DNA of 64,000 nt from a virus, in the IMG/VR virus record IMGVR_UViG_3300021197_000975, positions 1-64,000 of that record; one strand, given 5' to 3'. A program made the translations under genes and the position numbers. This document shows positions 55,901 through 62,161 of the stretch, one piece after another; the stretch's first letter is position 1, and every line of letters starts with the position of its first letter. The notes beneath the pieces were generated by a model. The model searched no databases. It saw nothing but the letters and a program-made list of their open reading frames with translations, and was not told where the DNA came from.

Positions 55901-56256
55901 GAACTCCTTATCCTGTTAATGCGCCTACAATTAAGACCATAGAGGATGAACTTAATAATAATTCTGTAGAGGGATTATACAGAAGAGCATTTACGGAGAT
56001 GAATCCTGAACTTCCCTCCATTATGCACCAGAGAGGGAGGAGGACAGCAGCGATGAAAGAAGCGGTTAGCAACTCCCTTCCTGCTATGGCCCCTCAGATC
56101 CCCTCTAAGGCATCTTCACCCCAACCCACCTTACCCCCCTCGGGAGATCCGAAAGCTCCTCAGACGCAGCCTCCGGCTCCCTCAGGGCAAGTTACAGGAC
56201 GGAGTGAGGGAGATGCTGCAACCAATCCTATACAAGCCCCTGAAGGCTTGATCTAA
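43936..56256 (+). CDS. Giant 4106-residue virion protein with exonuclease-like and HExxH motifs
   Basis: A single uninterrupted frame in the gp16 position. Residues about 170-330 are a Lys/Glu coiled coil. A DEDDy exonuclease-like domain occupies about 618-825: VVSFDIET (Asp624, Glu626), TFNGNSFD (Asp688) and Y818-LDA-D822. HEVVH at 2681-2685, with a downstream Glu at 2743 or 2747 (DEFLAEWGAYY), fits a gluzincin-type zinc protease. Near 3815-3840 is a hydrophobic helix (VVLDLIYNLFLAALFGMI). The last 75 residues are Pro/Ser/Gln-rich. It is probably packaged and ejected, with possible entry functions on host DNA and proteins. Most of its length matches nothing recognised by eye. Confidence 0.85.
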   Translation: MSCSLNFLDDLKQKFIDQGNSEADANNMVEALKIASSDPRSFRKHVASEKLKETWTSENKADLQGLMNKVLKSKDGTLLFDSLNEEESQSLKYLLTKKMAKDNDQAPVVRPSNADVRIQAEQELETEIERLQEIGDDRGAARNQQALSHLQQIRKNNSRLGNQYESISESIDSRDRLREQLVLLDVWLRNVDDGNKKAEARIKEMNEQLKTIKDDKYNQAKADKKTYEKQIKKLKSELKSIKNKKSEPANKIKREIKEKEGKLKEAVAIIQKADREAGPLEKKINRIIEAARELSDKNPEVKKLRKAHSAAEKKLKDVMAELNKAGFASDGFLQSIVQGINTAVTARQLAEDLQRARQDEALRIELIDSYFDKNHKNYIKPKEEKETTLSRDILSEILGPSFVVSRTEYGQVLTREEIDVLLKEWRSLNYKYAGEHGLLIADLTFADQQSLEAMQEQSTNEGKSVDETDNNTIIIPMLTQAQAMEKSNPGVIPDANAQLTPQELKQRLLKFVRKLETLRSSVGYGKYVGLQHVEAVLNNMPGLDDVSAQIWFDDAVRVLNEEGIETLTHTERQETLRHILRLTGMTDAEISSLPEMIDYGRWLQDLDVHDKENPMPLNQVVSFDIETRGKNNEEIIGWSIKRIDGTIINSRTIGEAMTKEEAQEMLALLNDLQNDGYKVVTFNGNSFDMNTLGALAENQQMGVRIAYRSLDVMQILRTFKSQIHTEDDAQSLYFSLNNVSRALGMGGKFGTVGPEGSVLRNLGKWYYLVHKKATTGEDVTFADIVKNGETMAEEDAQSILDEINGMSSEEAASYLDQYLDADAMLPAQILYGNGAQDGLFNMMGRNVKIKSANKGEATVEIAAPTPTWALTSNVTEAKQDRWHGLEWARHVADIGEVMTSAFSSIDDTSIVSVDLDLAISRVYDAVIRAQHLDPSQRLLAERMVDLAKETLSKEQLLEKEKINIIQANRQALENIHKEEFETGENAGRYPIEFVGANKIRYTSGAIDAQKAEYTDSVVNGFITFIGKRKAVDLDIIAKDIGFRERAVNEGDKKFAEQIINYFITRFTPHQKFQLSDWGDGTIDYAPANSVGIAIAQIVTTQPEGARLRDNARDWMEGGAEEFSESAKSEDEAYKRETTFHPPIFDEVHQALPRSLAEVEWAYDDWRLRKRLEHILDPKHITTKEEALEVIQSLRDREENENDVIGDTRTPRMGLTPNVSNRLIWNKLPSLEEHTNMVLESMLDMPQILMTWVHDSVALGGDHQMFLDPDLAETYFEDNALSPGSMTGSALISGLGIQLAHTRAYPVISIDTVIQSLERGISAYGDHGTDVFAKGNYFDYKFNGLHHFLALMLQYSPQGAQKLDEFLAEWEPTAFLYKTSKEAQDIYDTAEELIFESLTNHIKNTQEGPKRSELQKLLNFMESDPSIRDAMKKIVIPRLYMGGIDAMKSGLKEKAREEGWDINTDLLAELAMGPIQATKLRVVDKALGGLTDSDRRQLADALVTMYGDIYDHGRWHEQYKDYVKENHSLMEGKEFALSDLQFAIQKRIEFMVEILTPKTANDGLKLRERKGKMLTLIQERFQGRIQKAIDFVNEKGGVIKNQEDMRQLHVIISGSESAWKTSGTLAAMNVMGRTGYRLRSGEKINETDTLLEAQRQIIGRHLTEEDLLNYPSHLVYFAVGQDSAGQRLYYHSNNWGVQPQNVPAAQVYRENTHKGEDDNPYGMWKMEHNNLASLSKEDAETEVMKLVARDLSVRMAGSHAPQFGGYSTRPLKVTKDNVKTPGDETREGFWRDLKKRSTEEDNAYVRALNEEANWISAEERMKAGVSMEGDAALIDKLKQRRKTTGLRRNATRNVLDPTRTLNRAQNEIYVPSQDASVKGLGAFRPQYADIPWAERGIMSMAEARSNFKIDRGYNGRIHKDALSKTPESIADVIPSSARGWQGKYQGSDAPYVHETPIDFIGEGILGAGRKRIARRAEGLKNVLEKFAVEKGLQHFSEKNDWTSLYVRWQVDKKITRPFLKEISALETSTGATRGSSRQQALLARANMLSSLTGLHQFHRDVSQQNMTLIEYGQMLGFHPEDLKKSAANPEEGNQAFYWADFFKLLANRGVTNLAPLTINIDANSLSPVNLTAEGNILMGGEMTATSKQTRIITLTVQHNEMSQVLFTLFYEQRGREIAQEYLQSKMSEAAYGRLKKDGAGFPMLSEVPMSFQTELMHRLIEDKELLSIAIDNMGLHIILDSYTNEALASIGPHNLDPDKTLRPGMLTGGLHNFAVNENAGMYGITPEIANSMLSSLRNTVVNNTAELVSITGSQMGQVESPSMRLRDQAKRDFYESQRDGFSDEMDALSYLHITNNVDPPKSVRNPKLKNEYGQPVVVYDAPHYFAKKDKTTGLNPVEEGFAGYIRSAALNARALGLETEGKLLAQILNPKSTLFRTKYLREAVVIIVEASGSKMDSLFKLEAFLPGNWTRADIEVLYNEATKVRKGSKMSIVDAYRIAASRTMERNTFISPARRYVELNGEIDELNISADFAAYIGADVSNPETLLQARAAARIANNSLKEVSSEVEAFSGMDDDISLMEISDPEGFWHKYGNEGSSITAQISSMVGENLITPETAAFLRQMMGVVLSHNNDFANGLSLIHDPEISRASIAEKYGDKYSIRINPDLIKRMPQAEIIKVFAHEVVHIARMKYMESGDRAWNSLVGVYSTENGRETMRGLITIMTNGDSNAVNDAMEYYTGNIDEFLAEWGAYYLMAKTLGNHTVVNEVQNLRNTDTTAEETMQWWDRAFNYIKRVMGSIHQKLSIMQQTNPEVYKEMSTIVDGLFNFDNAHELTGRPLAKNPNMRMGVAKHTRMGPDFGRPSDENSRINSLAEVISREKNLRNTGAESDTNHPRHEEWLAATETIRAEGLLDHDILGIPHSEYISTLHEMWDADTGEFKQPENDKEEMIMISYLLKQVARQRGERVDSPGTFGHLLRKVFPEFTETVQDFLYNNSNRTDKTWNSKVAIIANLAWLLDNTKATTENAFQAEGNGIIHNKNYIEQYSRRVTEASNLIRSTYDKSTAMGIEQTAFSLLMDPEYVLPTTLTEEQKQHATMLSDIFRANHGQLLNMAKDMLLRREGRETHSSNLALRLNRDFLLRQEGRREEFVTALANKQSRKLQASLIPAGTIDSTLVYMSGLVPRVITNPDGNSVHPEFINELVKYTREDAPGALKAQLKILDRLALEQFQKSNKDLDSELLANEFDPEGENHYHNMAIYYQRAVVKLLKDTTNKKITYNELFDKGRLSQGERGAIFNYLQNRTNVVEDGGGTLDAVGRASDLKSGLGDIFRLRQDISSDIDVWAGVSPDAARMKTAYLLAQVGNSTFIPYEDGTELTITDIFGPDQYGDEREHSIVQAGFTRDLRQIIRGTQRGLGAAAHTRKVIKELTGVNMDFKRIIGSLRRYLDESPYATHISESVDFNGLDKSTGDQKAFIQRGLAHLERVYEVGMNIGNRVEITDRAAWDTLAKFGPDILTYVWGPNLNAANLIFEGGLSGLTTAMYGGNPVQLYSDILGNTFSLIWKLRKGMSNLEFTGQLRALGDAMFDTDSALRDFMENDVFENDQFFEEEGIPLNERGRKAYSGWIKGLRTYNNISAMAVKMATMKQGHRILMKNQEKLREMIEWNNNYDGPDNMNKFHKMKKELGLRFRGEVAQMFMESGLLKEDSADKLDWIMANVPMVRGMIDMSSLRERIEQSPNATITQGNSEFALKDLWEFATSIELFADKYSQLSVVKSDPLDKDVDSNAAWYLNALYRQFPNLFVAQHILRKGARHGMGPYAMTLSAGVVLDLIYNLFLAALFGMIEPKDFSRWAKGDFDTSDLLLIGRSIARFPGFGIRGNAATEAAMGLGYGIAKYTGGDMDLARAGTLAMPLPVVAGIRWIENMWAGVNNPLKYALADSSADKEYWQEKTIRDYVMAAKSMIPGLNDSILTSVMNNAWGEPVKPGKKQRTGTPYPVNAPTIKTIEDELNNNSVEGLYRRAFTEMNPELPSIMHQRGRRTAAMKEAVSNSLPAMAPQIPSKASSPQPTLPPSGDPKAPQTQPPAPSGQVTGRSEGDAATNPIQAPEGLI

Positions 56257-56270
56257 TAAGGAGATTAATT

Positions 56271-56537
56271 ATGGCTAAGAAAAGAAAAAGTAAAGGTGCA
56301 ATGAAGGGCTGCAATATCGGCAATGGTTGCAAAAGTAAATCGGGGGGGCTTACGGCTAAAGGTCGAAGAATGATCAATAAGAAAACTGGATCTAAGCTTA
56401 AGGCCCCTCAGCCCGGAGGAGGAGCTCGTAAGAAAAGTTATTGTGCCAGATCAGCAGGGCAGATGAAAAAGTTCCCCAAGGCTGCTAAGGATCCTAACAG
56501 CAGATTGCGGAAGGCACGTAGGAAATGGAAGTGCTAA
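56271..56537 (+). CDS. Small basic Cys-containing protein (DUF6321-like)
   Basis: 88 residues, about one third Lys/Arg. The segment GGLTAKGRRMINKKTGSKLKAPQPGG, then KKSYCARSAGQMKKFPKAAKDPNSRLRKARRKWKC, has the arrangement of the small DUF6321-type proteins found in many tailed phages (GLTAKGR, K-SFCAR, final W-x-C). Function unknown. It closes the late block after an AAGGAG site. Confidence 0.65.
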   Translation: MAKKRKSKGAMKGCNIGNGCKSKSGGLTAKGRRMINKKTGSKLKAPQPGGGARKKSYCARSAGQMKKFPKAAKDPNSRLRKARRKWKC

Positions 56538-56566
56538 AATCGACTATAGGGGTCGAGAATTTGGAC

Positions 56567-56602
56567 GGGGGGAGTATAGCTTTGAAGTTGAAGCTATCCC
56601 CC
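56567..56602 (+). promoter_or_regulatory. GC-capped hairpin upstream of small membrane gene
   Basis: GGGGG (56568-56572) pairs with CCCCC (56598-56602) and ATAGCTT (56576-56582) with AAGCTAT (56591-56597), with a three-base bulge. No T-run follows, so it is more likely a processing or regulatory structure than a terminator. A second C-tract at about 56607-56613 could compete for the G-tract. Confidence 0.45.
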
Positions 56603-56632
56603 AGTACCCCCCCTTCAAAGGAGATACATACC

Positions 56633-56815
56633 ATGTATCCAAAGAAAAGACCTGAGAAAGGCAAGCTCATTGATATCTTCTCTCATAATCCTCTCGTAAA
56701 GGGAGGACAGGGAAGGTCTGCCCAGCAGACTAAGGAAGATACAATCAGTGGTGCTATTGTGTGGACTGTATTCATTGCAGTCTTCCTTGTGGTGCTGATC
56801 ATCGCAGCTGCCTGA
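56633..56815 (+). CDS. 60-residue C-terminally anchored membrane protein
   Basis: Start ATG 56633 follows AAAGGAGATAC; an earlier in-frame ATG at 56525 would run through the hairpin and is rejected. Residues 1-37 are soluble and basic (KKRPEKGKLIDIFSHNPLV). Residues about 39-59 form one membrane helix (GAIVWTVFIAVFLVVLIIAAA). A late-position tail-anchored protein of this size is a holin candidate, equal in merit to those near 33 kb. Confidence 0.6.
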   Translation: MYPKKRPEKGKLIDIFSHNPLVKGGQGRSAQQTKEDTISGAIVWTVFIAVFLVVLIIAAA

Positions 56816-56822
56816 TCTCACT

Positions 56823-56874
56823 GACAATCTCAACGATGCTCTCTCAATCGAGAGAGTATCTATTGGGATTCTCA
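56823..56874 (+). repeat. 52-nt hairpin element, copy A
   Basis: Outer stem AATCTCAA/TTGGGATT (one T-G pair) and inner 11-bp stem GATGCTCTCTC/GAGAGAGTATC with AATC loop. The same 52-nt design recurs at 57229-57280. Together the pair flanks the 98-residue gene at 56924. Confidence 0.75.
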
Positions 56875-56923
56875 CTCTGAGAATTCTGTGCTTAAACTAG
56901 GGCTTGGCCCTAAGGAGTTTGAC

Positions 56924-57220
56924 ATGTCACAGTATGACGAACTGGCAGCCCGCCTTGCGGTGCTCGAAGCTCGTGATCGTATGCAGCGTGCCATCTTGTC
57001 GATGGTGACTGACCCTGCTACGTGGCAATCATTGCTTGACTTCCATGCTGAGTGGAAGGACGAGCTCCAAGCAATCGGTAAGGTTCTCAATGCTTTCTTC
57101 GATACGGAGAATGTACCTGAGCAGCTTATCGATACCATCGTTGATGGAGTCAAGGGACATGTAGCAGTACATGAGACTTGGCTAGAACATCATCGAGAGG
57201 CTGGTCACCTCAGTCACTGA
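56924..57220 (+). CDS. Small helical protein between the paired hairpins
   Basis: 98 residues from ATG 56924, which follows TAAGGAG; a GTG at 56888 is less likely. Helical and acidic (ELAARLAVLEARDRMQRAILSMV, FHAEWKDELQAIGKVLNAFF), ending in a His-rich segment (HVAVHETWLEHHREAGHLSH). Base composition is markedly more GC-rich than the late genes. Function unknown. Confidence 0.65.
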   Translation: MSQYDELAARLAVLEARDRMQRAILSMVTDPATWQSLLDFHAEWKDELQAIGKVLNAFFDTENVPEQLIDTIVDGVKGHVAVHETWLEHHREAGHLSH

Positions 57221-57228
57221 ACGTGACA

Positions 57229-57280
57229 GACAATCTCAACGACACCCTCTCTTAGGAGAGGTTGTCTATTGGGATTCTCA
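57229..57280 (+). repeat. 52-nt hairpin element, copy B
   Basis: Same length and same flanking blocks as copy A (GACAATCTCAACGA at the left, TCTATTGGGATTCTCA at the right). The inner stem differs in sequence (CCTCTC/GAGAGG) but keeps pairing, including two compensatory base-pair changes. It begins the leader of the polymerase-like gene. Confidence 0.75.
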
Positions 57281-57480
57281 TCCCACGGAGGAGAACGAAA
57301 GGACACAAGGACCACGCCTGCGGTGGGCAGGCCAGACAAACTATGCAAGGAAGCAAGCTTCACGCTGTAGCTCAACAGATCGTTCCAGTGCTACAGCGGA
57401 GCAATAGACAATAGCTGCGGTAGACAGTAGGCGTGTCACTGCCTGCCGCACATTCTCCTGAGACACGCGATAACTTTGGA
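57281..57480 (+). promoter_or_regulatory. Structured leader with potential pseudoknot before the polymerase-like gene
   Basis: No coding frame is convincing here. Three structures are visible. GCCTGC/GCAGGC lies near 57316-57332. An 8-bp stem pairs 57363-57370 with 57391-57398. A 12-position stem pairs 57417-57428 with 57438-57449 (one mismatch, one wobble). The loop of the last (57431-57437, GCGTGTC) is perfectly complementary to 57462-57468 (GACACGC), forming an H-type pseudoknot that ends 12 bases before the AAGGAGG site. Such an element could control translation. Confidence 0.55.
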
Positions 57481-57493
57481 AAGGAGGTTTGTC

Positions 57494-59404
57494 ATGATGG
57501 CAGACCGCACCAAAGTAGTGAGTGCTTTGACAAAGCCCGTATCAACGATATGGGATTTCGTCCACACTCTTCACACCTTCTGCAACATCCCGTTGCAGGA
57601 GGCTGGCGATCTCATGTTCGCCTTGGCTCACGATGGAACCATCGAGCTGTTCAACGTAGCAGACGATGAATCCAGCAAGACCACCACATATGTAGTTAAT
57701 ACACATGTGGCAAGTCGAGCCTTTGGACTTGATGGGGAATGTCGCCTCATCAGGTGTGACGAGAACAAGCGTATCCCATCCCTCGGGGCGGGCGGGCGTC
57801 TTGGCTCTTTCCACTTGCCACCCATGTTGGCGAAGGCTATGGATCACAATGATTCCCAGCGGTTTATCATGCACACCGGGATGCTCGATATCTATCGACG
57901 CATCAAGGATGGCATGTCCCGCGAGGATGATTCCAAGAATGTGATCTGGACCCGTCGCCGCAACAGGATGGAACTGCTACTGGTTACGGAGTTCGAGACC
58001 CATGGTCCCGGCCCTTATCACCAGATCGGTACACCCGAGGCAGCATTCCGGCTCCATGTTCTGGCTTCCACTGCGGGCATTGCGTCCCATCAGGGAAGTG
58101 GTTGGCATCGTGCAGTGTGCGACTTCGCTCTTCGGTACGGAGCACCCAAGGGCAGTGACGAGTGGGATCACGGTATGTACATCCTTGAACAGGAGTACAA
58201 CGTGAACACCAGCAACTACGCCAAGATTCTCGAGGCAGGTTGCAGCTTGGATCTGTTCCTTAATCCCGCCAAGTACGAGCACATGCTCGGCACCACTGAC
58301 GGGGCCAAGTTGGCCGAAGCTGTTCGCGCTGCGTTCTGCATTCATGAACTGCTGACTGAAGGATCCACCTCTTACATCTTCGGTAAGGACCGCAACTCCT
58401 GTGGTCCCGCCGATATGTCCCGTATGATCGGCTGCCGCGATCTCGCTACAGCTACGAACATGATCTACTCGGGCAAGGAGGTGAACTTCGCAGCTGAAGT
58501 TCTCAAGTTTGTCGGCAAAAAGATTGCAGTGACTGACTCCATGTTGCCTTACGAGGATCTCATCCTCGATCCCAAGGCAACTGGCAAGCCCTGCCTTCAG
58601 CCCATCCAGTACACGGCCTCTGCGGCTAGTGCGTCCCGTGCTCTTGTCTTTCGCAAGGGCAAGGGGGATGATGTCCATTACTTGGACGCTGCTGACATGT
58701 ACATTCCCGGCTCTCTGGATAAGGTTGCTGAATGCGACCTCAACCAGAAGTGGCTCCACGTTCACAAGGAGCTGGGTTGGGAGAAGAGCATTGCTCTTAC
58801 CATTGAGACTGCAAGCTGCATCGAAGAGGCCTTCCACATGCTTTCCCACGGGAGGGCACGAACGGCTGGTCAGATCATGAAGAAGGCAGTTGAAGTATGC
58901 AATGAGAATAAGACGTACCTCACATGGCCGACCGTCATGGGAATTGATTTCGTCTATCGGCCCACTGAACTTGATTACAGTGTGCTCGAAAAGGATGACG
59001 ATGGCAACATCGTCAAGGACGAACGCATCAAGATCTCAGGTCGAGTGAATGGCAGGAGGAAGCAGTACAAGCTGTACCCGACTGTCACTGAAGCTCGTAG
59101 CTCAGGAGCCTTGGCTGCTGTGCTGCGTGTGAAGGATGCGGAACAGAATGTCCTGTATAACTGCGAAGCCAGTGATGCAGGTATTCCCACCGCCAACACT
59201 CACGACAAGTTCGGCACAGCCCTTGGCTGCCTTGGTTTCGTGAACGAGGTGATCACCCGGAATGCAAAGACCGGGACCGATGCCAACTTCTTCAACGAGA
59301 TCATTGACAGGTACGAACTGCCTTTCAACCACTTCACGCCACTGCGGCCTGAAGAGTTGGATGGCAAGCACATGCTGGACGGCACTCCGCCTCATCTGGC
59401 ATGA
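57494..59404 (+). CDS. Putative short, divergent single-subunit (T7-type) RNA polymerase
   Basis: 636 residues from ATG 57494, after AAGGAGG (57481-57487); TTG 57476 overlaps that site and is rejected. Motif A-like: DRNSCGPADMSRM from Asp299, aligning position by position with T7 DGSCSGIQHFSAM (Asp537). Motif B-like: Lys361, Lys365 and Tyr373 at the spacing of T7 Arg627, Lys631, Tyr639. Motif C-like: THDKFGT with Asp571, against IHDSFGT (Asp812). The motif A-C distance is 272 residues (275 in T7) and 65 residues follow (71 in T7). About 240 N-terminal residues present in T7 polymerase are missing, so promoter recognition must differ. Codons are GC-rich, like the capsid gene. Alternative: an unrelated protein with chance motifs. 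Confidence 0.65.
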   Translation: MMADRTKVVSALTKPVSTIWDFVHTLHTFCNIPLQEAGDLMFALAHDGTIELFNVADDESSKTTTYVVNTHVASRAFGLDGECRLIRCDENKRIPSLGAGGRLGSFHLPPMLAKAMDHNDSQRFIMHTGMLDIYRRIKDGMSREDDSKNVIWTRRRNRMELLLVTEFETHGPGPYHQIGTPEAAFRLHVLASTAGIASHQGSGWHRAVCDFALRYGAPKGSDEWDHGMYILEQEYNVNTSNYAKILEAGCSLDLFLNPAKYEHMLGTTDGAKLAEAVRAAFCIHELLTEGSTSYIFGKDRNSCGPADMSRMIGCRDLATATNMIYSGKEVNFAAEVLKFVGKKIAVTDSMLPYEDLILDPKATGKPCLQPIQYTASAASASRALVFRKGKGDDVHYLDAADMYIPGSLDKVAECDLNQKWLHVHKELGWEKSIALTIETASCIEEAFHMLSHGRARTAGQIMKKAVEVCNENKTYLTWPTVMGIDFVYRPTELDYSVLEKDDDGNIVKDERIKISGRVNGRRKQYKLYPTVTEARSSGALAAVLRVKDAEQNVLYNCEASDAGIPTANTHDKFGTALGCLGFVNEVITRNAKTGTDANFFNEIIDRYELPFNHFTPLRPEELDGKHMLDGTPPHLA

Positions 59405-59489
59405 TTCACCTTGACGGGTGACTCTCCGGGGACGGGCAGGCTGGGAGAAATCTCAGTCTGTCTATTAGATGTCTAGTTGTTAGATATCT

Positions 59490-59517
59490 ATTTATTAATC
59501 TCACTGGAGATAAAACA
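59490..59517 (+). promoter_or_regulatory. Leader element shared with the major capsid gene
   Basis: ATTTATTAATCTCA at 59490-59503 followed by a GGAGA site, with the block ending 15 bases before the ATG. Sequence and spacing are identical to 13860-13887. Upstream, 59405-59489 holds two small hairpins (TCACC/GGTGA near 59406 and CTGGGAG/CTCAG near 59439) and no gene. Confidence 0.4.
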
Positions 59518-59964
59518 ATGAACAATGGAAACAACGCAAGGTACTTCTACCTCGAGGAGGTGGAGTCACCTCACCGGAAGTTCTTCTTCACCTCATTCGG
59601 AGACCGGGTGGGTGTGAAGTTCGTGGACGCAATGCCCGAAGAGCTTCGTGAAGGTGCGAAGATATATGATCTTATTACCTTCCTGCCCATGTGTGAGCAG
59701 TCAGGGTACAAGGTCGTACAGAATCGCTGGACTTCCAAGCATATCCGTCTGACGAAGTTGGATGGGATCTGGAAGGCCAAGGTTGTGGCTGTTCACCCTC
59801 TGGCCGACAAGCCTCTTCACGCCACCTTTGGTGGTGAGACGATGCGAGATGCCCTCTCCAACTTCTGGCTTGGGTGGAACCAGAAGGTAGTGAATGAGTA
59901 TGGACACCTCAATGTCCACACTCACATCATCTTCACCGAACCGAAGAAGTACCTCGAGTGCTGA
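59518..59964 (+). CDS. Unknown protein of the polymerase region
   Basis: 148 residues with GGAGATAAAACA before the ATG. Sequence RYFYLEEVESPHRKFFFTSFGDRVGVKFVDAMPEEL is rich in beta-forming residues. The end (GWNQKVVNEYGHLNVHTHIIF) is mixed. Codon use is C-ending as in the polymerase-like gene. The shared capsid leader suggests strong expression. Function unknown. Confidence 0.7.
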   Translation: MNNGNNARYFYLEEVESPHRKFFFTSFGDRVGVKFVDAMPEELREGAKIYDLITFLPMCEQSGYKVVQNRWTSKHIRLTKLDGIWKAKVVAVHPLADKPLHATFGGETMRDALSNFWLGWNQKVVNEYGHLNVHTHIIFTEPKKYLEC

Positions 59965-59975
59965 TGCACTGATTA

Positions 59976-60006
59976 CAAGGCCCCTTGCAAAGTGCTTGGG
60001 GCCTTG
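59976..60006 (+). terminator. 9-bp hairpin after the 148-residue gene
   Basis: CAAGGCCCC (59976-59984) pairs perfectly with GGGGCCTTG (59998-60006) across a 13-base loop, 11 bases after the stop codon. There is no downstream T-run, so it is either a weak or Rho-assisted terminator or a 3'-end stabiliser. Confidence 0.5.
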
Positions 60007-60025
60007 ATCTCTAGGCATCTCTACG

Positions 60026-60224
60026 TAACCCTAGATAACCCAAGTATCACGTAGCCCATCATAACACAGGATAGCCCTAGAGGTAGCCCTAAGTCGGCCC
60101 AGAGTAGCCCGAGGTAGCCCTAGAGGTAGCCCTACAGGCAGGTAGCCCCGTGGTATCCCCTAAGTAGCCCCCAAGTAGCGGGGTAAGGGGGTATCCATAG
60201 GCCTACCTGCTTTTTTCGTAGCCC
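60026..60224 (+). repeat. Iteron-like array of TAGCCC units
   Basis: Nine exact TAGCCC hexamers (starting at 60052, 60072, 60084, 60105, 60115, 60127, 60143, 60165 and 60219) plus two TAACCC variants at the left. A 20-base block containing two units occurs twice exactly (60072-60091 and 60115-60134). No ORF runs through convincingly. Candidate roles: replication origin iterons, terminase recognition, or the counterpart of the short repeats beside T7 terminal repeats. Confidence 0.7.
60138..60216 (+). terminator. Large terminator hairpin with T-run
   Basis: GCAGGTAG (60138-60145) pairs with CTACCTGC (60203-60210), followed directly by TTTTTT. The interior has several C- and G-tracts that can form an inner stem. 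It overlaps the right part of the TAGCCC array. Confidence 0.6.
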
Positions 60225-60345
60225 AACCCAAGACGGAACGCTTCGCTGACCATCTCTTGCCTTCGGCACACGCGGAACACACTCCCAGTTGCTCCCGAAT
60301 GCCAGCGGGGGTAAGCCCGTGGCATTCTGGGCAGTTTGTGAACAT
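60160..60345 (-). CDS. Possible leftward zinc-ribbon protein
   Basis: 61 residues on the minus strand. The N-terminus NCPECHGLTPAGIREQLGVCSAC has CPxCHG...CxxC, the pattern of a small zinc ribbon, followed by a basic tail. It would be the only leftward gene. Against it: no clear ribosome binding site, the 3' end lies in the terminator and repeat array, and an 8-bp hairpin (GAATGCCA/TGGCATTC, about 60297-60327) falls inside. Confidence 0.3.
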   Translation of the reverse strand: MFTNCPECHGLTPAGIREQLGVCSACAEGKRWSAKRSVLGWATKKAGRPMDTPLPRYLGAT

Positions 60346-60430
60346 GTGTCACCGAGTAGGGATCTTTCGGGATCTTCTTGGTGACAGGTTGGAAGAGTCA
60401 TCGTCCAGCCGTCCCCGTTGTGGGGAAGAA

Positions 60431-60697
60431 ATGATGACGTACTCTTCGGAGGACTTGGAATCAATGGCGAAGACCACTGATACCAAGCAGTCCACCAGCC
60501 CCAATGGATTCACTCGAATCCGTGAGGCTAAGGTGTCCCTTGAGGCCCAATACGCTGAGCGTGTTGAGGCTTGGGATGACGCCACGGTAGACCACTGCCT
60601 CGATATGATCGATGAAGGACGCATGCGCGTTCCCTTCAAGGTCCGTATCGTGCGTGCGTCTGCTGTCAAGCGTGGACTCGCCACTAATAACGGTTAA
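60431..60697 (+). CDS. Small helical protein of unknown function
   Basis: 88 residues from ATG 60431 with GGGGAAG upstream; ATG 60464 is an alternative. An upstream extension to 60257 crosses a hairpin and looks unnatural. The C-terminal 60 residues (FTRIREAKVSLEAQYAERVEAWDDATVDHCLDMIDEGRM) are helical. Tail is basic. A CCTCGC/GCGGGG hairpin (60710-60724) follows the stop. Function unknown. Confidence 0.55.
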   Translation: MMTYSSEDLESMAKTTDTKQSTSPNGFTRIREAKVSLEAQYAERVEAWDDATVDHCLDMIDEGRMRVPFKVRIVRASAVKRGLATNNG

Positions 60698-60750
60698 TCC
60701 GTTGTTGGGCCTCGCCTAGCGGGGTGGTGGTGTTTAGCACACCCGGCAGT

Positions 60751-60787
60751 AGCACTGGCTGTCGTTATGTCCTCAGTGCTTTTCTTT
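60751..60787 (+). terminator. Terminator ahead of the structured RNA region
   Basis: AGCACTG (60751-60757) pairs perfectly with CAGTGCT (60774-60780), followed by TTTCTTT. It would end transcripts from the polymerase-like segment before the structured RNA. A second 8-bp hairpin with a TTCG tetraloop lies at 60791-60810 (CTCTCTCC/GGAGAGGG), probably a stabilising or processing structure. Confidence 0.65.
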
Positions 60788-61341
60788 ATGCTCTCTCCTT
60801 CGGGAGAGGGTGTAGAGAAAATGAGTTAGGTTGGAACCAACGGATCTCCCGTGAGCAGGTGCTTGCAGGGCTGCAACCCGGTGAAGGTGGCGACTGCCCC
60901 TCCATGGGAGATCCATTCCAACCGCAACGAGCAGCAGACGGGATGCAACTGCAATAACAACATCCCAATTCGGGTGCTGGAGTGTGATGATGTCCGCCAT
61001 TGACCAGCATACTATGAAGAGGCGGGTCCGGCTAAAGAAGGCAGCCGTGAGGTGGATAGGGGACGAATCGCCAGCCTTTACTTATGGAGACCTGAAGCCA
61101 GATCGTATGCTGGAACAGGATAAAGATAGCGCCTCTGTCTTAGGCGGGAACTGCTGGGCATGGTGAGAGGATACTCTCTTTGGATACGGTACACGCCGGT
61201 TACATGTAGGTAGATAAACCGTGGCCCGTAGCACGAAGAAATCGGGGCGGTACGGACCTTTGCTGTGAAGACGTTACCAGTAAAACAGCATGTGCCTGAG
61301 TATGCACGTAAATAACTACTCCAATCTAATAGGGGGACCTA

Positions 61342-61435
61342 GGCATGCTCTACGATGTCCTGAGGTTGCTTGTGCTGGTTCAGGAGCCAAGATAAGTAAC
61401 TTATGTCGTATCGGGTTCGAATCCCGGCCCCTCCT
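61342..61435 (+). ncRNA. tRNA-like element 1
   Basis: The 3' half is tRNA-like: T arm TCGGG-TTCGAAT-CCCGG (61411-61427) followed by CCCCTCC and T. A variable-arm-like hairpin ATAAG-taa-CTTAT lies at 61392-61404. The preceding hairpin TCCTGA/TCAGGA (61358-61385) has a 16-base loop instead of 7. No matching 5' acceptor strand (GGAGGGG) is present, so a normal tRNA is unlikely. Confidence 0.4.
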
Positions 61436-61442
61436 AACCTAT

Positions 61443-61544
61443 GCCCTGCCGTGGCTTGGCTAAATTCTACGTGTCTTTGATAAGTAATTGGTCGTAGAAG
61501 ATGAAAGTCAAAAGACTAGAGAGGTTCGACTCCTCTCGGGGCTT
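61443..61544 (+). ncRNA. tRNA-like element 2
   Basis: T arm AGAGG-TTCGACT-CCTCT (61520-61536), variable-arm-like AGTC-aaaa-GACT (61506-61517), and a 7-bp stem TTCTACG/CGTAGAA (61465-61499) with a 21-base loop in the anticodon-arm position. GCCCTG (61443-61448) can pair with CGGGGC (61537-61542). No seven-base anticodon loop is visible. It shares the GATAAGTAA block with element 1. Confidence 0.4.
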
Positions 61545-61554
61545 ACCATATCAC

Positions 61555-61745
61555 GATGAGTCGTGCGTTAGTATAGAGCGTGAGACTATACCCAATGCAG
61601 AACTGGATTAGCGGGGGTGTCAGAGGTCTGTTGAGGTTTGAGTGCTACCAAGAGTCAGAAAGCATTACACGATTTTAGGTCTTGAGTTCGACACAAAACG
61701 GCTCGGGCTTGTGAGCTAAGGATCGTATCCTTCCCTGACTGCGAA
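61555..61745 (+). ncRNA. Further hairpins at the 3' side of the structured region
   Basis: CACGA-tgag-TCGTG near 61552-61565, an interrupted stem around GTATAG/CTATAC (61571-61591), GCTC/GAGC near 61701-61716 and AAGGAT-cgt-ATCCTT near 61718-61732. No gene is seen. These may be the end of the large RNA or a separate small one. Confidence 0.4.
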
Positions 61746-61817
61746 ATAACGTGAGGTCGATGGGTGGTGTAAGCATGACAACACACACGAGTTTCTTATG
61801 TATTACAAGGAGAACAT

Positions 61818-61895
61818 ATGATAATTCCAAACATGTTCTTGATCGGTGCTAGGTTATATATTATACTAGAGCCCATCAGAATGACTCTTTGTTGA
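61818..61895 (+). CDS. Possible 25-residue peptide
   Basis: ATG 61818 has a good AAGGAGAACAT site. The hydrophobic peptide (MIIPNMFLIGARLYIILEPIRM) ends at TGA 61893-61895. It overlaps the promoter at 61839-61867, so it would be made from an upstream transcript. Weakly supported. Confidence 0.3.
   Translation: MIIPNMFLIGARLYIILEPIRMTLC
61839..61867 (+). promoter_or_regulatory. Sigma70-like promoter for the early operon
   Basis: TTGATC at 61839-61844, 17-base spacer, TATACT at 61862-61867. Both hexamers are within two changes or fewer of the sigma70 consensus and the spacing is ideal. Transcription would begin near 61874 and run into 61997-63969, letting host polymerase read these genes first. 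Confidence 0.6.
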
Positions 61896-61996
61896 ACCAT
61901 ATGGACAAGCCTAGACTGTAGTGATGGTGTGTAGTGGCTAGGATGAGGTCAGGGAGGCCAAGAGTAGCAATCTCCCCAGCATACAAGGAGGTGTCT

Positions 61997-62161
61997 ATGA
62001 CACAAGATAATTACGATAGATACTACAAGTATCTCAATCTGCTCTCTGCCTACGGTCGTGAGGGTGAAGTGAGCGATCTTGTCGAGCACTTCAATGTCTC
62101 TAAATATGAGGCATTCAGAATTATAATGAATTGGGCTGAGTCCCAGAAGGAGTCTGACTAA
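61997..62161 (+). CDS. Small helical protein with possible helix-turn-helix
   Basis: 54 residues from ATG 61997, preceded by AAGGAGGTG; a longer GTG/ATG frame from 61934 lacks a site. GEVSDLVEHFNVSKYEAFRIIMNWAE has the spacing of a helix-turn-helix. First gene after the sigma70-like promoter, so an early regulator is possible. One-base overlap with the next start. Confidence 0.6.
   Translation: MTQDNYDRYYKYLNLLSAYGREGEVSDLVEHFNVSKYEAFRIIMNWAESQKESD

Follow-up and report, generated by a model that had tools for sequence, protein, structure and literature searches.

What is encoded in the 1.1 kb without genes that lies between the late and the early genes of this viral genome: one large RNA, or several separate ones? 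The window, by which we mean the whole stretch of DNA analysed, covers 64 kb of a viral record of 70,358 bases and carries genes for a T7-type primase-helicase, a family A DNA polymerase, a ribonucleotide reductase, a head-tail connector, a terminase and a 4106-aa protein; a single-subunit RNA polymerase gene sits just past its end. The gap is flanked on one side by the late block, whose last gene ends at 60697, and on the other by early genes leading toward a DUF932 protein and the RNA polymerase. From 60698 to 61817 we find no credible ORF, in agreement with a preliminary description that had called the stretch gene-free, and the gap is closed by a micro-ORF.

61818-61895, + strand: micro-ORF MIIPNMFLIGARLYIILEPIRMTLC, 25 residues, conserved.

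Its product, possibly a small membrane protein, shares 19 of 25 residues with that of L083:424-501 in a related contig, and the codons that differ between the two comprise 6 synonymous changes and 6 that are not. The gap (60,698-61,817) is real and very probably encodes RNA, and it is best explained as the non-coding stretch where, in a T7-like podovirus, the late gene block meets the early one. Promoters within it are no more numerous than chance. The array of RNA elements runs past 61760, where the preliminary description had ended it, to 61990, flanking the micro-ORF.

The surrounding sequence has features of its own. Over 56001-61000, which takes in the final late genes and the first part of the gap, a GC content of about 40% gives way to one of 50-56%, and GC skew all but disappears. 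A 642-aa gene at 57476-59404 is without a family match. The low-complexity stretch at 60030-60215, in which GTAGCCC is repeated, ends with a strong hairpin and a T-run, and L006 and L121 have similar TAG/GTA-rich stretches in the equivalent position. At 903-963 a stem-forming spacer (ATAAGAG...CTCTTAT) separates tRNA-Met and tRNA-Arg; the spacer is of equal length in L044 and L083.

Folding statistics and database scans

The elements that we distinguish, in order along the + strand, are as follows.

60829-60924, +: M0, a single long branched hairpin, GGTTGGAA/TTCCAACC around GGATCTCCC/GGGAGATCC; MFE -47.7.
60934-60966, +: M0b, a 33-nt H-type pseudoknot, GCAG/CTGC, with loop GGGATG pairing CATCCC; has homologues.
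60968-61080, +: M1, TGCTGG/CCAGCA interlocked with CCGCC/GGCGG, plus a CGGCT/AGCCG hairpin; conserved in 3 sequences.
61067-61156, +: M1q, a CCTG/CAGG hairpin, ATAAAGATAGCGCC..GGCGGGAAC; homologue in L123.
61292-61321, +: Mx, a 4-bp hairpin GTGC/GCAC with loop CTGAGTA, in which GAGTA can pair with a downstream TACTC; covarying stem.
61331-61432, +: M2, tRNA/tmRNA-domain-like, with acceptor AGGGG/CCCCT, an arm from TACGAT/GTCGTA and a T-arm at 61411-61427; homologue in L044.
61442-61548, +: M3, tRNA-like, with acceptor, D-arm GCC/GGC, arm TTCTACG/CGTAGAA and a T-arm at 61520-61536; homologue in L087.
61585-61681, +: M3b, leader copy 1, with P2 CAGAA/GTCTG, P3 GGT/ACC and pseudoknot AGTGCT (61641-61646)/AGCATT (61661-61666); 69.6 bits against model R1 (training sequence).
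61896-61990, +: M4, leader copy 2, with P2 CCTAG/CTAGG, P3 GGTC/GGCC and pseudoknot GGGA/TCCC; 85.9 bits against R1 (training sequence).

The preliminary description had held that the stretch is strongly folded. Taken as a whole it is not: the predicted energy of the + strand has a z of -1.2, with 3 of 20 shuffles as good, and that of the minus strand a z of -2.5. The perfect 8-9 bp stems named earlier do exist, but their number is no more than chance: 200 dinucleotide shuffles lead one to expect 4.5 stems of 8 bp or longer and 1.1 of 9 bp or longer, and there are 5 and 2. Locally, z is -3.2 for M0 (96 nt, 1 of 200 shuffles as good), -2.5 for M2, -1.8 for M3 and -1.7 for Mx, and a clear excess over shuffles is confined to the 60829-60924 hairpin and the two tRNA-like pieces. 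The M4 motif, with z +2.1, folds worse than its shuffles because it is a pseudoknot; folding energy alone would miss the best-supported element.

Covariance-model scans for GOLLD (RF01998), ROOL (RF03087), OLE, tmRNA and RNase P gave no match, for GOLLD, ROOL and OLE neither at gathering score nor in the permissive E-value mode. The only Rfam matches are three ordinary tRNAs at 829-1125, and the gap returns nothing convincing even permissively, so that the proposed kinship with GOLLD or ROOL finds no footing here. What the preliminary description had right is that the gap holds non-coding structured RNA with tRNA-like pieces, new to RNA databases. Matches to mir-3533 (60137-60211), SNORD81 and Plastid-psbl-rps4 score far under gathering, and neither a group I intron nor a hammerhead, readings drawn from the sequence alone, has Rfam support.

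Relatives share pieces of the gap

Searches with the RNA polymerase found more than 80 related contigs. Pieces of the gap are common to relatives whose RNA polymerase protein is about 50% identical: 60970-61076 to L090, 61293-61432 to L044, 61441-61543 to L087 and L088, and both 61523-61670 and 61895-61970 to L083. Copies of M0b, M1 and Mx lie at the opposite end of the L083 contig, and copies of M0b, M1q and Mx in the contig of L101. The shared modules are 30-150 nt long with a DNA identity of 75-95%; set against the RNAP gene, with its 67-69%, module identity is 79-95%. L044, L083/L121, L087, L090 and L101/L123 hold them in differing combinations, modules having appeared, disappeared or come to stand beside other genes. 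Part of their high identity may reflect recent recombination, because the early gene or genes near the gap likewise reach about 85% identity to L083 and L044.

Among isolated phages we found no homologue of the whole gap. The single ornate RNA of about 1 kb that had been proposed gains no support from this comparison, since homologues have only separate modules, which recombine independently, are interrupted by ORFs and stand before different genes; one large conserved fold inherited as a unit, as in GOLLD, ROOL or OLE, is not what they have in common. Covariation, by which the large RNA was to be judged, is found in individual modules but is inapplicable to the whole, because the comparison turned up no whole homologue. 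From these alignments the gap appears to be a mosaic whose RNA elements are inherited independently and fold separately, and not a single RNA. The order M0b-M1-Mx-M2-M3b is kept in one relative, and these elements may therefore share one transcript.

Known RNAs of processing or regulatory kinds also occur in this gap in relatives. A manA-like RNA lies immediately before the early genes at L087:2853-3048 (79 bits), L011:6140-6351 (37.8 bits, under gathering) and L006:5986-6190 (19.2 bits, under gathering); the manA covariance model (RF01745) has no match in the window. Pistol ribozymes lie at L011:6406-6482, L022:3125-3193 and L033:4866-4918. Type II hammerheads are seen in intergenic regions of L006 (2028-2093 and 2507-2575).

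The upstream elements

M0 has no homologue in the relatives. M0b has homologues at L044:3802, L121:6054 and L123:6974, and related copies of the form GCAG..GGRTGC..CTGC..AACGCAY occur in L006, L016, L047, L056, L060 and L062; its covariation is weak because the sequences vary little. M1, whose interlocked TGCTGG/CCAGCA and CCGCC/GGCGG helices are a possible pseudoknot, is 93% identical in DNA to L090 and 87% to L121 (RNAP gene 67%), and a pattern search of bacterial genomes found no M1. M1q is 87% identical to L123:7003-7085 across 86 nt, and its core recurs in L087:3491-3515.

Mx is present in 9 copies in 7 phages (the window, L044, L121 and L123 once each, L087 and L022 twice, L033 once), with a loop of CTGAGTA or CTGAGCA followed by a AACTACTC-like strand. 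The descriptor scan is noisy, and matches were kept by eye only if they had both the CTGAGYA loop and this strand. The stem covaries, with at least six base sets; its own pairing holds in 34 of 36 cases and 5 of 100,000 permutations are as good, in a test that leaves sequence relatedness in and that uses, as for the pseudoknots below, alignments and pair assignments made by hand from tool output. The pairing between loop and downstream strand is near-invariant and too uniform for statistics, with one L022 copy having GAGCA with TGCTC.

tRNA-like elements without anticodon loops

Both strands of the 70-kb record together hold only two orphan T-arms, at 61411-61427 and 61520-61536, and they confirm the tRNA-like pieces reported earlier. 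Around them lie M2 and M3, which comparison supports as candidate tRNA-like domains, with the anticodon loop either absent or exchanged for something else; the comparative basis of each, as of M1, is 2-3 sequences. M2 is without a D-stem, and its long arm runs directly into the T-arm, an anatomy like that of the tmRNA tRNA-like domain. The pairing is kept in L044 despite base changes (TACGAT/GTCGTA becomes TGTGAT/ATCGCA), and a truncated copy lies at L083:1-26. Whether or not the arm is cut back, ARAGORN makes no tRNA call, and Rfam scores only the T-arm (12.4 bits); because no tool recognises M2, its name rests on anatomy. Nor is it a complete tmRNA: it is about 100 nt long, has neither a tag reading frame nor internal pseudoknots, and default ARAGORN finds no tmRNA. 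Pattern matches to M2 in L102 and L103, which are unrelated phages, are due to chance.

M3 has no 7-nt anticodon loop but instead a 7-bp arm and a 21-nt insert, and possibly a variable arm. In its homologue L087:3713-3812 the D-stem and T-stem still pair with changed bases, while the CCA encoded after M3 is not kept. Unmodified, M3 receives no tRNA call from ARAGORN or Rfam (only 829-1125 is called). With the arm cut back the tRNA body of acceptor, D-arm and T-arm is recognised: ARAGORN accepts the copy in L087 under default settings and that in the window only once the threshold is relaxed to 80%, with 0-1 of 200 shuffles called in the control. At lowered thresholds or with introns ARAGORN makes scattered, uninformative calls on both strands. 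The L044 copy of M2 and the L087 copy of M3 both end about 15-20 nt upstream of a Shine-Dalgarno sequence (SD) and ATG. In another clade, extended-arm tRNA-like elements lie near tRNA genes at 11 loci. A GACAA pentaloop forms the anticodon loop in tRNA-like genes at L022:15265-15362, L034:12328-12396 and L039:16792-16862.

Further variations on tRNA occur in the same gap of relatives. The match at L087:3160-3241 to the Rfam tmRNA model (82 nt, 51 bits) comprises the tRNA-like domain only, without message or pseudoknots. Circularly permuted tRNA-like genes lie at L087:3063-3146 and L087:3610-3706, as well as in L088, L099 and L100; in L087 the order is T-arm, acceptor, linker, acceptor, D-arm, that is, the 3' half is upstream of the 5' half. 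When the halves of both L087 genes are reordered and joined by an arbitrary loop, ARAGORN calls them (0 of 300 shuffles). A weaker permuted gene at L011:6543-6650 is called only with a relaxed threshold, and within the window none is found by eye, the halves of M2 and M3 being in normal order. Neither RNA ligase (PF09414) nor RtcB is found in these phages, so ligation of the permuted products would need host enzymes. A full-text search of one open-access library listed no paper with a title on permuted tRNA in phage, and such genes would be unexpected, if expressed.

A pseudoknotted leader element

M3b and M4 are paralogues within the window, and L083 likewise has two leader copies. Model R1 was built from eleven sequences, M3b and M4 among them. 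Five of its pairs change on both sides, with a covariation score of 0.323 versus 0.144 (0 of 500 shuffles), and the helices contain 13 cells with changes on both sides against 4.3 when shuffled (0 of 500). The loop of P3 pairs with the strand 3' of a conserved AAGAGT, forming an H-type pseudoknot; across 12 sequences, 0 of 100,000 permutations are as good as its own pairing (1 of 20,000 in a first test with 10 sequences). L086 (E 2.6e-9) and L052 (E 0.04), both outside the R1 training set, also form the pseudoknot. The outer closing helix P1 gains no support, its own pairing being no better than swapped ones (3916 of 20,000).

In most of the 13 leader copies an SD and start codon follow within about 10 nt, before at least six kinds of ORF, and the pseudoknot ends about 5-20 nt upstream of the SD. 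M4 is followed by the SD AAGGAGG at 61985-61991 and an ATG at 61997. M3b is 95% identical to L083:63-159, which lies directly upstream of an SD and ATG; the window M3b is the exception, with no gene directly downstream. Apart from this copy, the element combines covarying structure with a near-fixed distance before the SD and ATG of different genes, as a cis-regulatory leader would, and it fits a cis-acting translational control element. A search of 59950-62010 at E up to 5 gave M3b and M4 no match among Rfam cis-regulatory families, and the leader pseudoknot is previously undescribed. Matches to the M4 pattern in two bacterial bins (L126, L127) have no model support.

Proposed function and alternatives

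We put a probability of roughly 0.55 on the reading in which the gap gives rise to an early leader transcript that is cut at tRNA-like sites and whose pseudoknots tune early translation, the elements being separate and not parts of one RNA. The structures are supported by comparison, and from them we infer the function. An early transcript would span the gap, and RNase P and the 3' processing enzymes of the host would cut it at the tRNA-like domains, at the place where Pistol ribozymes presumably cut in relatives. Cutting would release stable small RNAs and trim the mRNA leader; the pseudoknot, then just before the ribosome-binding site, would open or close that site and set the translation of the early gene.

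The main rival to cutting at these domains is a role for the tRNA-like RNAs in trans. Tentatively, these phages may possess a system of anticodon-less tRNA mimics that acts in trans on host tRNA machinery or on tRNA-targeting defences, within an early RNA hub that includes the pseudoknot leader class; its members would be the extended-arm and GACAA-loop RNAs, the message-less tmRNA tRNA-domain and the permuted genes of the relatives, with the acceptor/T-arm half kept. That M2 and M3 themselves work in trans, as decoys or as resistant mimics directed at tRNA-binding factors or at host defences that cut tRNA, we consider unlikely. The anticodon loop would have been removed because such nucleases cut there, which suits the replaced anticodon arm beside a kept acceptor and T-arm and the extended-arm (11 loci) or GACAA-pentaloop RNAs of other clades, and altered anticodon loops have been argued to let phage tRNAs escape anticodon nucleases (PMC10264068). 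However, M2 is without a D-stem, and one would expect a decoy aimed at an anticodon nuclease to retain the loop.

Improbable, in our judgement, is one large ornate RNA of the GOLLD/ROOL kind, divergent or of a new class, covering about 60,829-61,760 and perhaps assembling as a cage. The 1.1 kb without genes, the tRNA-like pieces, the multiple pseudoknots and the module order kept in one relative would suit it, but it has no Rfam match, the whole is not common to any relative, its modules come, go and change gene partners, and its global energy is near that of shuffles. It is equally doubtful that the gap acts as DNA (terminal repeat, packaging, or early promoter at the genome end) with decaying tRNA genes and incidental RNA structure, as a junction of late and early blocks like the T7 left end and the break of related contig G022 within M2 might suggest, given that pseudoknot and stem covary (0-5 of 100,000 permutations as good), the leader position is fixed before SD and ATG, the T-arms are intact and the promoter count is not above chance.

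On the preferred reading, that of a processed early leader, what had looked like a new giant RNA is replaced by several small ones, each of them testable.

Comparison with known systems

GOLLD and ROOL are phage-encoded and non-coding and contain tRNA pieces and pseudoknots (PMC12286853); the gap resembles them in all of these respects but is modular and has no covariance-model match. Theta ribozymes are small RNAs adjoining phage tRNAs that have been proposed to mature them (PMC10879173), whereas the gap contains tRNA-like domains and pseudoknots, with no HDV-like ribozyme found in it. The manA RNA and the Pistol ribozyme occupy the same gap in related phages and are absent from the window.

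With tRNA and the tRNA-like domain of tmRNA, the elements have in common an acceptor stem, a T-arm with a TTCGA loop and a long arm where the anticodon arm would be; unlike tmRNA, they are without a reading frame, tag peptide or internal pseudoknots, and M2 and M3 of the window score below threshold. They are candidate tRNA-like RNAs without anticodons in a group of T7-like phages.

The T4 gene 32 leader pseudoknot and the preQ1 and SAM-II riboswitches are translational-control pseudoknots or riboswitches in 5' leaders. M3b and M4 are like them in placing an H-type pseudoknot just 5' of a phage or bacterial ribosome-binding site, and differ in having their own P2-TGAGG-P3-AAGAGT core, a different sequence without an Rfam match, and several unrelated early genes downstream. 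This pseudoknot leader class, with its two copies here, may set the timing of early genes.
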